The notes under the pieces: model-generated
The model's database searches: none
What the model was told of the DNA's origin: nothing
Seen by the model: the letters and a program-made list of their open reading frames with translations, nothing else
Assembly: GCA_015063235.1 (NCBI GenBank)
Contig: SUSW01000025.1
Span: forward strand, 1-41,439
Direction of reading: 5' to 3'
DNA length: 41,439 nucleotides
Source of the DNA: Thermoplasmata archaeon
Lineage (GTDB): Archaea; Thermoplasmatota; Thermoplasmata; Methanomassiliicoccales; Methanomethylophilaceae
Translations under genes and position numbers: made by a program
Shown: in pieces, positions 6,575 through 31,189 of the stretch
Layout of the letters: each line of letters opens with the position of its first letter
How positions within the stretch are numbered: position 1 is the first letter of the stretch

Positions 6575-7918
6575 ATGACGGGCACGCCCTGGAAAGCCGT
6601 ACTTGTTTTCAGTATCCCGATAGCAGTCGGGTATCTTCTCCAGATCATGTACGGTACCGTCGATACGATCATCGTCGGCAGAAAGCTCGGCGAGGCTGCA
6701 CTTTCTGCGGTGGGTAACTCAGTGACATTGACCACGGTCTTCGGATGCGTTTCATGGGGCCTTTCGGCCGGAATGAACGCAGTCCTCTCCAGATACAGCG
6801 GCGGTGAGAAGGACGAAGCGATGAGAAAATGCTTCGGAACATCCATGGCAATGAACCTCACAGCGGGTTTCATGATGACCATATTATGTTTCTTCCTCGC
6901 CGAACCCATTTACAGATTCGTAATGGGCGTACCTGACGATATAATGGATCTGACCGTCAGATACACTCAGATATTCGGTCTCGGATTCACATTCCAGTTC
7001 GGTTATAACGCCATAGGTTCCATGATGAGATCCTTCGGGGACAGTCTGACTATAATGTATGTGCTTATCTCCACCACGATACTGAATACGGTTCTCGACC
7101 TGTATTTCCTCCTAGGACTCGGAATGGATGCCGACGGTACGGCTATAGCTACCGCCATTTGCCAGGTCATCTCTTTCTTCTCGCTCTTATATCTCTACAA
7201 CAGAAAATACAAAGATTACGCTATCAAGCGCGGAACTGTGAAGTTCGACTGGGAATATGTGCACGAGATCCTGGAAGCGAGTGCCCCGATGGCCATCCAG
7301 CAGGTAGCGATATTTGGAAGCGCCATCCTCTTCCAGCAGGCGGCCAATTCCTACGGTTCGGAGATGATCGCCTCATATGCAGTAGAGAGAAGGCTGGAAG
7401 CATTCTACCGTCTGCCAATCTCCGCCATAGGCGCAGGAATGGTGACATTCGTCGGACTCCATTACGGTGCAAAACAATATGATCGCATGTTCATGGGAAT
7501 AAGACAACTGCTCATCATGTCAGTAGTGATCACCGTTGTAATATCAGCAATTTCGATCGAGATAGCTCCAATCCTGACAAGCATATTCGGACTGTCAGGA
7601 ACATCTCAAGACTACTGCACAGAACATCTGAGCGTTATCAATCTGCTGTTCCCGTTGTTCGCGTTGTATTTCCCAATGCTCAGTGTCTTCCAGGCCGTAA
7701 AGCGGCCGAATATGTCCTTGATTGTGGTCATTTTGGAGATTGTCATCCGCCTGTTCTTCCTCTGGGCACTGATGCCTGATGAACTGTTAGGATATCACAT
7801 CATATGGTGGAATGCACTCTTCGGATGGATCGTGTGCATAATCGTGACATTCCTCTATTACAAGAAAGGCCGTTGGAGGAATGATTTAGAACGCCCCCCT
7901 GAAGCTACGGCAGGATGA
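6575..7918 (+). CDS. MATE-family multidrug/metabolite exporter
   Basis: A membrane protein of about 447 aa with twelve hydrophobic segments and the MATE hallmarks: PWKAVLVFSIPIAVGYLLQ in helix 1 and the first-repeat segment DTIIVGRKLGEAALSAVGNS. The second half repeats the fold (SAPMAIQQVAIFGSAILFQ). MATE proteins export drugs or metabolites in exchange for Na+ or H+. The start is uncertain: ATG 6575 has an ideal GGAG six bases upstream, while in-frame ATGs at 6527 and 6509 would add 16-22 residues without a visible Shine-Dalgarno. The gene is followed after four bases by two GGDEF-type membrane proteins on the same strand, so the three probably form an operon, an unusual setting for an archaeal exporter. 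Confidence 0.88.
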   Translation: MTGTPWKAVLVFSIPIAVGYLLQIMYGTVDTIIVGRKLGEAALSAVGNSVTLTTVFGCVSWGLSAGMNAVLSRYSGGEKDEAMRKCFGTSMAMNLTAGFMMTILCFFLAEPIYRFVMGVPDDIMDLTVRYTQIFGLGFTFQFGYNAIGSMMRSFGDSLTIMYVLISTTILNTVLDLYFLLGLGMDADGTAIATAICQVISFFSLLYLYNRKYKDYAIKRGTVKFDWEYVHEILEASAPMAIQQVAIFGSAILFQQAANSYGSEMIASYAVERRLEAFYRLPISAIGAGMVTFVGLHYGAKQYDRMFMGIRQLLIMSVVITVVISAISIEIAPILTSIFGLSGTSQDYCTEHLSVINLLFPLFALYFPMLSVFQAVKRPNMSLIVVILEIVIRLFFLWALMPDELLGYHIIWWNALFGWIVCIIVTFLYYKKGRWRNDLERPPEATAG

Positions 7919-7922
7919 TAAA

Positions 7923-9071
7923 ATGATAATGGAAGTTAATTTCGGAATCGATGTTCTTTGCATCTTGATACTCCTAGTGCTTTACCTAAGTATCAGACTC
8001 GATGAGAGGGATTCTCGTAGCGTATCGTTGTTCAAGGCCACTGTAATCTGTTCGACACTTTTCATCATGATCGACCTGCTGTTCAATTATCTGATTGAGA
8101 TCGATGCACCGAATTTCGCTTTGGGTACGACACACTTCGTGAATGTTCTGGCAGAATTCGGAGCATACTCTCTGCTCTGCATGTATTATTTCAGCGTCTA
8201 TGACGAACTTGACAACTGGAAGAGCTGGAAGATGCGTTTCATACTCGTGATGGGCGCATTATTGATCGTGTTGACCCTGCTATCGCTGTATGATGGATCC
8301 GCATTAGATTTCAACAGCAAAGAAGTGACCGTCGCGGATGTCGTAGCCTTTATGACGGCTTTCCCGCTCATACCTATACTTCTAGATTCCATCGTGCGTG
8401 CGGCCCGTTCCGTGTTCCCTGCCGACAGAACTGAATGCCTTATGTTCTCATTCTTCGTTCTATTCCCGATTACAGCCGGTTTCATCCTGTCGGAAGTAGT
8501 CAAGGATTTCACCATTGAATGTATAGGCATAACATTCTGCCTGACATTCCTCAGTGTGTATAGAACCAACCGCAGCATAGTGACCGACCCATACAGTGGG
8601 TTCAAACGGAGATTCCTGATGATGCCCTACATCGAGAATTCTTTCAAGAAAAGAAGCGACGGTCCGGGAACGGTTGTCGCCGTCACTGATGCGGACCGCT
8701 TCAAAGTCATCGTCGATACCGTAGGGCACAGTAACGCCACGAAGCCACTCGTAGAAATCGCCGAAGCGATAAAGTCAGCGATAAAGGGCCAGCGCTGCAT
8801 GGTATTCAGTGCCATCGGCAGCGCGGATGAGATGTTCATCATCATGGATCGCGGAACAAGGGAGCAGATGGAAGAGATCCGGAGAAAGATTGATGAGAAC
8901 CTAGAGAAGAAGAACAAGGAACTGCCCTACGAACTGCATGTGAGTACGGGTATAGCCGTCCAAACACCGGAGACTGAAAGCCCTCAGCAGCTGTTCGATG
9001 AAGCTGATGCGGATATGTATGCAAGGAAACAGGCATATTATACCGAGAAAGGTTACACGAGGAGGAAATGA
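7923..9071 (+). CDS. Membrane protein with degenerate GGDEF domain
   Basis: A 382-aa protein with about six hydrophobic helices in residues 8-215 and a cytosolic C-terminal domain (about 218-380). The domain follows the diguanylate-cyclase plan: TDPYSGFKRRFL in place of the D-LTGL-NRR start, DADRFKVIVDTVGH (255-269) where cyclases have D-D-FK-IND-GH, GSADEMF (299-305) in place of GGDEF, and STGIA...DEADADMYARKQ at the end. The signature loop and the Asn of IND are changed, so catalysis is doubtful; a nucleotide-binding or partner role is more likely. It sits between the MATE gene and a better-conserved GGDEF gene with only four bases on each side. The domain identity is clear by pattern; the function is inferred. 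Confidence 0.75.
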   Translation: MIMEVNFGIDVLCILILLVLYLSIRLDERDSRSVSLFKATVICSTLFIMIDLLFNYLIEIDAPNFALGTTHFVNVLAEFGAYSLLCMYYFSVYDELDNWKSWKMRFILVMGALLIVLTLLSLYDGSALDFNSKEVTVADVVAFMTAFPLIPILLDSIVRAARSVFPADRTECLMFSFFVLFPITAGFILSEVVKDFTIECIGITFCLTFLSVYRTNRSIVTDPYSGFKRRFLMMPYIENSFKKRSDGPGTVVAVTDADRFKVIVDTVGHSNATKPLVEIAEAIKSAIKGQRCMVFSAIGSADEMFIIMDRGTREQMEEIRRKIDENLEKKNKELPYELHVSTGIAVQTPETESPQQLFDEADADMYARKQAYYTEKGYTRRK

Positions 9072-12888: not shown

Positions 12889-13323
12889 TCAGTTTGCCTC
12901 CGGCATTCTTACGACCAGCACGGGACAGTCTGCGGCTCTGACGACCCTCTCCGCCACGCTTCCCATAAGGAGCTTGGACATCCCTGTCCTTCCGAGCGTT
13001 CCCATGACTATTATGTCGTAATTCGATGACTCCTCGAGGATGACCTTGACGGGTGTCCCTTCCTTGACCGAGACCTCAGCCTCGATTCCCTCCTCCTTGG
13101 CGAGGTCCAGAACGTAATTGACGGCTTCAAGACCTTCTTTCTCAAGGGTCTTGTACACGTTCATCACCGCCGTGTCCATGGGCATGTTCGTGAGGACCGT
13201 CTGGTCCAGAACGTACAGCGCCGTGATCTTTCCGCCTGTGAGCTTCGCGAGCTCTACAGCCTTTTTGATGGCAGGCTTGGTGTATTCGCTTCCGTCAGTC
13301 GGTACAAGGATTCTGCTGAACAT
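12889..13323 (-). CDS. Universal stress protein (UspA family)
   Basis: A 144-aa single-domain Usp. The start MFSRILVPTDGSEYTKPAIKK and the ATP-binding loop MGTLGRTGMSKLLMGSVAER (G-2x-G-9x-G-S/T pattern) identify it, and indicate the ATP-binding subclass. A Shine-Dalgarno GAGGAG precedes the ATG at 13323; longer frames run into the amidohydrolase gene. Usp proteins act as small nucleotide-binding dimers in stress and energy sensing. Its TGA touches the ATG of the CBS gene (TGAATG), so both are translated from one message. Confidence 0.92.
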   Translation of the reverse strand: MFSRILVPTDGSEYTKPAIKKAVELAKLTGGKITALYVLDQTVLTNMPMDTAVMNVYKTLEKEGLEAVNYVLDLAKEEGIEAEVSVKEGTPVKVILEESSNYDIIVMGTLGRTGMSKLLMGSVAERVVRAADCPVLVVRMPEAN

Positions 13324-14381
13324 CGTCTCACTCCTCGATTTGTCCTTATGCGGAACGGAGTTCCCGGACCCTGGTTGCTTGAGGTACCAGAATCTTCCTT
13401 TTCGGGGATTATCGTCAAGACCCGTTCCTGCTTCTTGACCATCATCCTGGTCCTGTGTTTTAATAATTTGCACGACAAGGTAGAGAGCATGGCCCATGCA
13501 TCTCCTGGGTCCGCTCCCTGACTGTCGAGAATGGACGACATCACGCCGCATTCCTTCACCATGTCCGGCTCGCAGAGCATGCCGTTATCGGTCCCCAGGG
13601 CGACATCGGCGCCGTTGCGGATCATTGATGCCACCGGAGCCTCCTTTCCGAAATACCGGTTCGATGTAGGGCACACCACGATCGGCACCTCAGCCTCAGC
13701 GCATTTGGCCAGATCATCATCGGTGGCCTCACACATGTGGACCACGAACGCTGGGTCCAGGGACAGGACAGTATCGATGTCCTCCCTTACCCTCTCGCTG
13801 ACATGGATGGCGAGGATCTTCCGCGCATCGCGGACATCGTCAGCCACCGATTCGATGTAATCAAGGGGCATATCCAATATGCTAGGAAGCCCTATACCGT
13901 CTGCAACTTGCAGTATCTGGCTCATCTCTTCCGGATCGTACTCTTCGGATACCGGACGGCCCAGGATGACCGCATCGCCGCAGCACTCTCTCAGCACCTT
14001 GCAGCCCTCTGCACCGCCCTCTCTGAAATCGACGAAACCTGCCGACCCATAGAATGCAGATGCCTAGCAGAACGAACGGATGTTCCCCCTGAGGCCATCC
14101 CCGTCCAATTCCCTGAGGTACCTGTGCTTCAGCCCGTCGGGAGGAGCGACCAGTTCCTCCAGGGACAATCCTTCCGGAACCTTCAGACCGTAATCCCCGC
14201 AGTGGGTATGGGCATTGAGAACATCATAGACGAAGATCCCCTGGAAATCGCAGTCTGAAGACACCCCGCTGTCCATGGATACCTTGCCGTCCGACACGTA
14301 CAGAGTGCATTCCTCACGGCGGCGGCCATCGATGACACAGCCTGATGCTGTGAAATTATCCGGATCGAAGGCCTTTTGCAT
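13254..14381 (-). CDS. Amidohydrolase-superfamily enzyme with in-frame TAG (possible pyrrolysine)
   Basis: Two open pieces in the same frame, 14064-14381 and the region down to 13254, are divided only by TAG at 14064-14066 (codon 106). Read through, they give one protein of about 375 aa with the full metal site of a cytosine-deaminase/chlorohydrolase-like enzyme: NAHTHCGD (H58, H60), AIHVSE, VVHMCEAT and LGTDNGML. The segment after the TAG (ASAFYGSAGFVDFREGG) is strongly conserved in style, lies between the first metal ligands and the rest of the barrel, and has no start codon of its own before GTG at about 13997. This argues for read-through as pyrrolysine over decay. The C-terminus is doubtful: the frame overlaps the universal stress gene by 70 nt and ends there in another TAG, so the true end may be earlier. 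Substrate unknown. Confidence 0.75.
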
Positions 14382-15461: not shown

Positions 15462-15830
15462 ATGGAGACAAAAGAGCTGTACTCTGAGAAGCTTATGAAC
15501 CTCATCCTGGACGCCATCGATGAGATCGTCATCATCCATGACATGGACCACAACATCATGTGGATGAACCATGCCGGGGAGGTAGCGTTCGGGATCAGCG
15601 TGGAGAAGGCGCTCACGATGAAATGCCATCAGCTGTTCAACAACCTCATGCCCTGCGCGGACTGCGATGTGGGTACAGTCGTGATCGGCGAACCGACCAT
15701 GAAGCTGCCGAGGAAGAAGACGATACCGTCGAACGGTAACGTGGTAGAGTGCAAGACCATGCCATACTATCACAACGGGAAGATGTAGGTCGTCGTCCAG
15801 TGCCTCCGCCTGGTAAAGAAAGAGGAGTGA
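15462..15830 (+). CDS. PAS-domain sensor protein with in-frame TAG near the C-terminus
   Basis: The frame opens at ATG 15462 after a GGGGAG ribosome site and encodes a single PAS domain: MNLILDAIDEIVIIHDMDHNIMWMNHAGEVAFG, then a Cys-rich stretch (MKCHQLFNN, MPCADCDVG) common in methanogen PAS domains. At 15786-15788 it meets TAG; the same frame goes on for 13 codons (VVVQCLRLVKKEE) to TGA at 15828. Those residues are exactly the last strand of a PAS fold, normally written as 'GK..GVVQ..R(D/L)', so reading the TAG as an amino acid, most likely pyrrolysine, gives a complete domain of 122 residues. Stopping at TAG would remove the last strand. No kinase domain is attached. The next gene follows after six bases, with its ribosome site inside this extension. 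Confidence 0.78.
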
Positions 15831-29422: not shown

Positions 29423-31189
29423 TCACTCAGACAGCCCGTCGGAGTCGTGGGCCTGCATCTCGAACATCTCGATGATCTCACCGACTGTCGTGCACTGCTC
29501 TGGGGCTTTGTCATCCCTCACCCTCCCAGTAAACCTGGGGAATCTGATACCGAGGCCTGCATCCTCCTTGAGGACGCCTTTGGCAGCTGTATGGATGGGG
29601 CTGAGAGTGATCTCCGCAGCCACGACCTCCAGGACCGTTGTGGGATTGAACCATACATCCGGTATCATCTCGGCATCGACCAGACGGGGCTTCTGTTCCG
29701 ACAGTCCCGGGTTCAGCATATCCGGCATCGCATCCAGGAACGCATCGTCGAATCCCGTGCCCAGCTTGCAGACGGTCTCGAACCTTCCGGAATCCTCGTT
29801 GAACGCCGCCATTAGAAGCGCACCGTACTTGCCTGCCCTCTTACCCATACCGTAGAACGCCCCTACAACCGAGAGATCGAATGAATCGGTCAGAGCCTGC
29901 TGATAGTCCTTCTTGTACTTGATCCACAGGAAACCTCTGGACCCTGCCCTGTAGATGGATTCGGGAGCGATAGATTTCGCCATTATCCCTTCGCATCTCG
30001 CAGCCACGGCATTGGCGAAGAAGTCCTCTCCCTCCTCGGGACTGTTAACCAATCTCATTGTGGTCATCTGGACCTTGTCGCCCAGGTTGAACGAAGCTTC
30101 CAGCTCCGATCTGCGGTCGAGATAGGGCACATTGGTCATATCCTGTCCATCACGATAGAGGATGTCGAACATGAAAATCCTCACACTCACCTCTTTCACG
30201 GCCTCTTCCATCCCGTGCTTCTTCCTTCTGTGAGTGACCGCTTGGAACGGGAGCATGAAACCTGTCTCGGGGTCGATAGCGACGCATTCGCCTTCGATGA
30301 TGACCTCCCCGTACCTGCACTGGGCCCTCAAAGCCTCGGCGATGTCCGGGAAGTTATGAGTGAGGTCCTCCAGCCTCCTGGAGTAGAGTTTGACCAAATC
30401 CTTTCCGACGTGTGCCTGGACCCTGATGCCGTCATACTTGTACTCAATGGCACACCTGCCTCCCATCTTCTCGACCACTTCCGCAACGGAAGGGAGACGT
30501 TCGGCCAGCATAACCTTGATGGGATTACCTATCTGCACCTTGATCCCTCTGATTGCGTCCATCCCGCCCTCGGCGATGGTCTCCGCTACGAATCCGATGT
30601 CGCATGTGATGTTGAAAGCCCTCTCGATGGCGGGCCTGTCCTCCTTGGTGGCAAAAGCCTCTGCAAGTGCGTCGAGGATGGTCATATCCCCTGCGCCCAC
30701 CCTCATCCTTCCGGTCACGATCCTGCATAAATAACGAGCTTCGATGGGTCCGGAATCGTGGAGCATGTTGGCCAGAAGCTTCATCTTCTTGTCCTGCGAA
30801 TCCTTGCCCTCGGCATCCTGGATCGCGGTGAGGCCCTTGTATACCCTGTCGACGGTGAGCTCCTCGGCGAAGAGCGTCATCTGCTTCTTCTTGGATATCA
30901 GGTGCTCTGCGACCTCTCCGGGATCGCCGGTCTTTATCCAAAGCTCCTCTGCCTTGGATTCAGGAGTGCCAGATGTGAAAGATATTGCTTTAAGGACCAG
31001 CTTGTCGGCCATTCCGAGCTCCTTTGCGACGAAGTCGGGATGGAGCTTCCCCTGAGAAAGGTAGATGATATTCCTGAGCTCTTTCTTATCGACCCTGCGT
31101 ATGAAATCGGCAAGGATGGATGTCATCTCGAGACGGCTGCCTGTAGCCTCCAGTCTGTCGAACGTTTCCGCGAGCTCAGAATACAACAT
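29423..31189 (-). CDS. lig: ATP-dependent DNA ligase, replicative archaeal type
   Basis: A 588-aa ligase with all three domains of archaeal Lig: N-terminal DNA-binding helices (1-215), adenylation domain with the active lysine K251 in IEYKYDGIRVQAH, motif IIEGECVAID, motif GIMAKS (EGIMAKS), motif WIKYKK, and an OB-fold C-terminus ending in RFPRFTGRVRDDKAPEQ. It seals nicks during replication and repair. The start at 31189 gives the expected MLYSELAETFDRLEATGSRLE. It is 51 nt downstream of the Hef-type helicase, and the two repair genes probably belong to one unit. Confidence 0.95.
   Translation of the reverse strand: MLYSELAETFDRLEATGSRLEMTSILADFIRRVDKKELRNIIYLSQGKLHPDFVAKELGMADKLVLKAISFTSGTPESKAEELWIKTGDPGEVAEHLISKKKQMTLFAEELTVDRVYKGLTAIQDAEGKDSQDKKMKLLANMLHDSGPIEARYLCRIVTGRMRVGAGDMTILDALAEAFATKEDRPAIERAFNITCDIGFVAETIAEGGMDAIRGIKVQIGNPIKVMLAERLPSVAEVVEKMGGRCAIEYKYDGIRVQAHVGKDLVKLYSRRLEDLTHNFPDIAEALRAQCRYGEVIIEGECVAIDPETGFMLPFQAVTHRRKKHGMEEAVKEVSVRIFMFDILYRDGQDMTNVPYLDRRSELEASFNLGDKVQMTTMRLVNSPEEGEDFFANAVAARCEGIMAKSIAPESIYRAGSRGFLWIKYKKDYQQALTDSFDLSVVGAFYGMGKRAGKYGALLMAAFNEDSGRFETVCKLGTGFDDAFLDAMPDMLNPGLSEQKPRLVDAEMIPDVWFNPTTVLEVVAAEITLSPIHTAAKGVLKEDAGLGIRFPRFTGRVRDDKAPEQCTTVGEIIEMFEMQAHDSDGLSE

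Follow-up and report, generated by a model that had tools for sequence, protein, structure and literature searches.

The amidohydrolase locus

The window, i.e. the whole stretch of DNA that was analysed (41,439 nucleotides), carries on its minus strand an amidohydrolase gene whose codon 106, counted from the ATG at 14379-14381, is TAG (14064-14066). This is the single in-frame TAG inside the amidohydrolase. The genome to which the window belongs measures 1.78 Mb in 54 contigs and is 87% complete. The features that bear on the analysis are the following:

13334-14381, minus strand: amidohydrolase (deaminase-type), read through UAG106; 349 aa in the aligned part (homology, predicted structure)
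14064-14066, minus strand: in-frame TAG, codon 106, candidate pyrrolysine (Pyl) codon (conservation on both sides)
14067-14381, minus strand: pre-TAG piece, 105 aa, with the HTH motif (profile match)
13334-14063, minus strand: post-TAG piece with the HVSE, HMCE and GTDN motifs; no start codon ahead of the conserved block (profile match, alignment)
13254-13256, minus strand: second in-frame TAG (codon 376), past the end of homology and inside the stress gene (frame reading)
13161-13166, minus strand: tandem TGA TGA, where the amidohydrolase frame first meets stops other than TAG (frame reading)
12889-13323, minus strand: universal stress protein gene, overlapped by the amidohydrolase frame; its ATG at 13321-13323 is placed from relatives
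15462-15830, plus strand: PAS-domain protein with an in-frame TAG at 15786-15788 (codon 109 of 122), the second Pyl candidate in the window

An earlier note on this DNA had described a frame open on both sides of a single TAG at codon 106. Coordinates and frame were borne out, and the observation of the in-frame TAG is confirmed. Downstream of this codon no stop interrupts the frame before 13254. Past the TAG, a possible start codon (ATG, GTG or TTG) is first met with the GTG at 13997, which already lies beyond a conserved F-V-D-F-R-E-G-G block; therefore, reinitiation at this GTG would lose the block. The post-TAG piece has no start of its own, as had been claimed, but the TAG does not fall within a conserved block: it was found about 10 codons ahead of it, in a variable stretch.

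The amidohydrolase frame overlaps the universal stress gene by 70 nt, and this gene was the same neighbour in all four relatives looked at (L005, L006, L007 and L009). In 49 relatives (the 29 best-scoring loci of the family search and 20 places hand-picked from its list, out of 94) none of the amidohydrolase stops is TAG, most being TGA or TAA near residue 345-365. The window lacks the homologous terminal stop, and its frame runs on to overlap the stress gene; the unbroken relative L007 shows the same. The frame then meets another TAG within the stress gene, and the protein could end at this TAG 13254 (375 residues) or, by reading on, at TGA 13164-13166 (405 residues).

Enzyme family and predicted structure

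Both pieces match the NCBIfam model PRK07213 (chlorohydrolase) in register, residues 41-97 corresponding to profile positions 39-96 and the post-TAG piece to positions 111-352. The score of 159.6 bits is below the curated cut-off of 294, as are both pieces; the two intact relatives tested, with 163.2 and 173.3 bits, were likewise under it. The HTH motif is located at 58-60, before the TAG, and HVSE (H193, E196), HMCE (H215) and GTDN (D265) come after it. The HxH, H, H and D ligands and the HxxE of the mononuclear deaminase-type amidohydrolase superfamily are all present in the window protein. The metal-binding assignment among H58, H60, H193, H215 and D265 is the one that we take to be general in the family. 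These five residues and E196 were found to be invariant in a 54-row alignment, in agreement with the description of the ligand motifs as intact on both sides of the TAG.

The structure model of the read-through protein displayed a mean pLDDT of 90.8, and its best PDB match was TM0936, a deaminase-family amidohydrolase. Motifs and fold suggest that the enzyme has the chemistry of a mononuclear deaminase-type amidohydrolase, in which a pyrrolysine at position 106 would have no part.

Conservation and distribution of the gene

The window protein keeps 46 of 46, 61 of 61 and 84 of 84 columns conserved at 98, 95 and 90%, respectively, among the 49 relatives. All 65 of the columns after the TAG that belong to the set of 84 (at least 90% conserved) are kept; at this level the 50 rows have a median of 97.6%. 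When 53 named relatives were used, 15 of 15 columns conserved at 90% or more were kept before the TAG and 53 of 53 after it, showing that the open downstream frame is not due to chance. Judging from these alignments, loss of the second half would not leave such conservation unless the mutation were very recent.

Signs of decay in the amidohydrolase gene were sought by column conservation against the 49 and the 53 relatives, and none were found. The overlap of 70 nt with the universal stress gene, which had been read as a warning of decay, does not in itself indicate decay: the unbroken relative L007 likewise overruns into its stress gene. As far as the alignments can tell, the gene is not decaying and is otherwise intact.

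An amidohydrolase match was obtained in 97 of the 102 family genomes, and in 94 of them it is an ortholog or a fragment. The matches of G026, G027 and G028 were set aside as orthologs, being weak matches to another superfamily member. An intact second copy, which according to the earlier note would speak against a pyrrolysine site, was not found in the own genome (87% complete), where the gene is single-copy. Among named sequences, the four that match the enzyme best are 58-61% identical in the best segment, records of the own genome being possibly left out; their titles give Methanomethylophilaceae, Methanomassiliicoccaceae or Thermoplasmata archaeon, and one comes from roe deer omasum.

In-frame interruptions across the amidohydrolase family amount to two TAG and one TGA, a margin so small that it speaks against read-through as far as this family alone is concerned. 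An ortholog in another genus (L034, G012:C1:1728000-1730000) is interrupted by a separate TAG at codon 7 (TGG in the near relative G013), and the ortholog in G017 has a TGA within its frame. Among the 80 named loci, L147 and L153 show a TAG where their relatives end, which was taken as a normal stop; their genomes lack a PylS over the cut-off.

Codon 106 as a site

Column 106 holds 21 sense codons and 11 residues in the 49 relatives, Glu and Arg being the commonest, and its variability exceeds that of 86% of the 348 columns. TAG occurs at this codon in none of the 49, so that the conservation of Pyl expected of a catalytic Pyl enzyme is not seen. In the predicted structure, codon 106 is placed in the helix 94-110, where positions 97, 101, 104 and 108 are more conserved and 106 lies on the variable face. 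This pattern of helix conservation suggests that residue 106 is exposed and distant from the metal site.

In MtmB and MttB of the same genome, TAG is read as Pyl too. Pyl is catalytic in those methyltransferases, unlike the variable site of the amidohydrolase. The variable column with its 21 sense codons, together with TAGs in unrelated genes, has the look of neutral drift in a genome that decodes UAG generally. Pyrrolysine at position 106 is most likely neutral or tolerated rather than catalytic, as far as the alignment indicates. The suggestion that a special Pyl residue makes the enzyme interesting is not supported, given the variable column and the TAGs in unrelated genes of the genome.

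Pyrrolysine machinery of the host

A single run on contig C47 of the own genome contains mtmB (TAG at codon 202), tRNA-Pyl, pylS, pylB, pylC and pylD. The pylT gene (L054:17697-17767, minus strand) has the anticodon CUA. With the catalytic-domain model TIGR02367, PylS scored 261.9 bits (cut-off 178.15); the full-length model PRK09537, with the N-terminal domain, gave 210.6 of 550 and its cut-off was not reached. The scores of PylB, PylC and PylD were 439, 317.4 and 198.7 bits over curated cut-offs of 348.2, 248.3 and 150.05, respectively. The Pfam MtmB match crosses the TAG of mtmB, and mttB, with TAG at codon 337, is found on a different contig from the pyl run. PylS was over the cut-off in 74 of the 102 family genomes.

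Since a complete pyl cluster adjoins a TAG-bearing mtmB, the host can decode UAG as pyrrolysine. A host of this kind had been proposed from the window alone, with a search for pyl genes as the check and their absence as the contrary outcome; pylT, pylS and pylBCD were all present, the proteins scoring over curated cut-offs.

TAG as stop or sense codon in the genome

Stop usage was determined in a sample of 441 kb (the window and 20 stretches, about a quarter of the genome) with a simple codon-usage gene caller. The 376 gene calls ended in 331 TGA, 38 TAA and 7 TAG. Five of the TAG-ended calls, mtmB and mttB among them, continue into 165-365 codons of coding-like sequence; of the other two, the PAS gene continues by homology and L059 by 7 more codons. 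Six of the seven appear to continue through the TAG. The possible TAG terminators left in the sample are one in 376 calls (L059) and the TAG at 13254. In this sample, then, genes scarcely ever terminate at TAG.

When TAG was treated as a sense codon, 10 of 373 calls held an in-frame TAG, with a caller that missed the amidohydrolase itself. Pfam matches span the TAG in mtmB, mttB, one GNAT protein and a SAM methyltransferase, and by few residues in a TerB-like protein. In the other GNAT protein and in an AMP-binding enzyme the match lies after the TAG, and in the PAS protein it extends up to it; two of the ten TAG genes gave no Pfam match. L061, whose TAG at codon 13 lies ahead of a likely later start, and L059, with 7 codons and no family, were regarded as weak and were not counted.

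As a control based on homology, the sample of the own genome was searched with 623 ORFs from half of the relative G050. Matches were found for 207, and 148 of these, with 44,789 codons, passed at 40% identity or more and at least 60% coverage; a stop was regarded as internal when at least 8 codons from either end of the match. The 148 homologous genes contained three internal TAG, two of them within the window, and no TAA or TGA. The first stop past the matches was TGA in 123 cases, TAA in 19 and TAG in four. Three of these four TAG are the Pyl codons of mtmB/mttB, where the ORFs of the relatives stop too, and the fourth is 13254. If the three stops were equally likely, the chance of obtaining three TAG out of three would be 1/27 by arithmetic, so the homology control is modest alone and counts jointly with the other evidence. 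The reverse control detected two TAG and two TGA inside 139 genes of G050, in which TGA breaks do occur.

A coding-score control without homology gave, at 40 codons, 4 TAG, 1 TAA and 11 TGA sites, and did not separate TAG from TGA. Four sites were inspected: two TGA and one TAG resemble shadow ORFs, and the TAA resembles two neighbouring genes. The other nine TGA sites have a nearby start codon. A structured element after the TAG was also sought, and the result was no better than for shuffles (z = -1.05 for the amidohydrolase, -0.32 for the PAS gene and -0.40 for the window across the TAG). According to a passage of a review (PMC9499178), a downstream element is unnecessary for UAG decoding.

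Other candidate genes

The TAG of the PAS gene sits 1.7 kb from that of the amidohydrolase. The PAS protein was matched in 30 of the 31 genomes of the genus, including the own one, and only the own copy has an internal stop. This TAG aligns with GAG, GAA, CAA or GAT (Glu, Gln or Asp) in all 11 relatives examined, and the tail beyond it is conserved.

Further candidates in the own genome comprise the SAM methyltransferase (L062:4213-5331), a 469-aa protein of unknown function (L060:17194-18603), the TerB-like protein (L054:10808-13120), the two GNAT acetyltransferases (L057:1905-2516 and 7562-8107) and a short protein (L067:2910-3257) with a relative in G050.

In G050, a sister species, codon 46 of a DNA ligase gene (L229, G050:C1:1052545-1054305) is an in-frame TAG, against CAG in the ligase of the window (29423-31189). 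It is the sole match in G050 to the window ligase, with 92% identity overall. Within this search, which covered one type of ligase, L229 encodes an enzyme that ought to be essential and apparently depends on the decoding of UAG. Two frames without TAA or TGA, of 4385 and 5266 codons and with two in-frame TAGs each, were also observed in G050 (C1:400001-1200000, L168-L207); they may encode giant proteins with Pyl.

Release factor and UAG

The archaeal release factor aRF1 was sampled in 58 of the 102 family genomes. We take NIKS to be its stop-recognition motif. Five positions before NIKS, every one of the 28 sampled genomes of genera g1, g6, g7, g9 and g14 carries Gln or Glu, and the remaining 30 carry Tyr, Phe or His (L216 and other loci). 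The columns five and two before NIKS separate genomes with PylS from those lacking it best of all columns. In the aRF1 tree, the Q/E type arises by one change (support 71/94; one change in 74% of the bootstrap trees), and thus it represents one event and not a repeated correlation.

TAG-ended calls were counted per genome over 80 kb each (441 kb for the own genome and 800 kb for G050), shadow ORFs included. In genomes with PylS and the Q type, 7 of 378 calls ended in TAG in the own genome (5 continuing), 20 of 595 in G050 (12 continuing), 2 of 68 in G049 (both continuing), and none in G008 (53 calls) and G101 (70 calls). For the Y type with PylS, the values were 5 of 66 in G025 (0 continuing), 9 of 71 in G082 (1 continuing) and 7 of 45 in G001 (1 continuing); for the Y type lacking PylS, they were 3 of 67 in G094 and 5 of 69 in G087, with none continuing. 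Two genomes with PylS speak against a role of aRF1: G012, of the E type, with 8 of 54 (1 continuing), and G002, of the Y type, with 2 of 74 (0 continuing).

A broader proposal is that aRF1 has been retuned and that UAG is an unambiguous sense codon in the clade, the amidohydrolase being one of many ordinary Pyl enzymes, the DNA ligase of the sister species included, which would make Pyl synthesis generally needed even when methylamines are not used for growth. We consider this proposal speculative and rather unlikely as a whole, and the stop counts in the other genomes fit its aRF1 part only in part.

Interpretation of the TAG at codon 106

It is very probable that the amidohydrolase of the window is functional, that its codon 106 drifted to TAG at a neutral site, and that UAG is decoded there as pyrrolysine. 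The tRNA-Pyl(CUA), charged by PylRS with Pyl from PylBCD, would decode UAG; this machinery is evident from the genes, and its action at codon 106 is a prediction. At UAG106, Pyl-tRNA would compete with aRF1, presumably with no special signal. The change itself may have been from a sense codon, in the simplest case GAG or AAG, to TAG at a tolerant position, giving a full-length protein and being nearly neutral. Genes of this genome hardly ever terminate at UAG, so that such a change would leave the protein complete and only add a Pyl side chain.

If the TAG were instead a recent nonsense mutation, UAG106 would mainly terminate and the gene would be a young pseudogene that has lost its terminal stop too. 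This would account for the single TAG, for the missing homologous stop and hence for the overlap with the stress gene, and it agrees with the occurrence of TAG at codon 106 in only one of the 50 aligned orthologs. On the other hand, the unbroken L007 also overruns the stress gene, no conserved residue is lost, and TAG is hardly a stop in a genome where 148 genes show three TAG against no TAA or TGA breaks. The gene is also rarely lost, 94 of the 102 family genomes having an ortholog or fragment, and we consider a pseudogene improbable.

An assembly or sequencing error at one base is conceivable in a draft genome of 54 contigs and 87% completeness, but random errors would seldom give internal stops that are TAG in three out of three cases, and the same class of site is present in mtmB, mttB and other genes; the chance of such an error appears very small. 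As slight is the likelihood that Pyl106 has been selected, either by altering the activity of the enzyme or by tying its synthesis to the Pyl supply as a methylamine sensor. A Pyl-dependent amidohydrolase would couple to methylamine metabolism, an attraction that is an inference only, yet not one of the 49 relatives has TAG at this codon, position 106 belongs to the variable side of the helix, and TAG also occurs in unrelated genes.

Several known systems come close to this case. Judging by its title, a 2009 PNAS paper reportedly describes how Pyl appeared neutrally in an enzyme unconnected with methylamine metabolism, a protein different from the amidohydrolase. Kivenson et al. are said to have reported in Science in 2025 archaea that read all TAG as Pyl, with proteomic proof. 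In that archaeal code UAG would be a normal sense codon, and the stop counts of the window genome suggest the same.

In a relative, Ca. Methanomethylophilus alvus, Pyl proteins outside methylamine metabolism have been predicted (Borrel et al. 2014; BMC Genomics 15:679, PMC4153887). The 20 rows of the table in that paper include 16 Pyl proteins besides methyltransferases, half of them with TAG-less homologs in two other genomes; TAG represents 1.6% of the stops, and an in-gene TAG is argued by the authors to be a stable mutation (PMC4153887). Ca. M. alvus resembles the present case in belonging to the same methanogen order, in its TAG-interrupted ordinary genes and in a very low usage of TAG as a stop (1.6% vs 7/376 uncorrected). 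It differs in species and gene: an amidohydrolase annotation appears in none of those 20 rows, in which two of the 16 proteins are described merely as 'hypothetical protein' (PMC4153887). Since such proteins were already predicted in a relative in 2014, the amidohydrolase is a further case.

At codon 106, a neutral replacement by the 22nd amino acid has a clear candidate. Annotation with the standard code breaks such genes into fragments and would list the amidohydrolase and the PAS protein as truncated or missing. Should ordinary genes use UAG for Pyl, the organism would need Pyl synthesis in general, rather than as an optional module for growth on methylamines.
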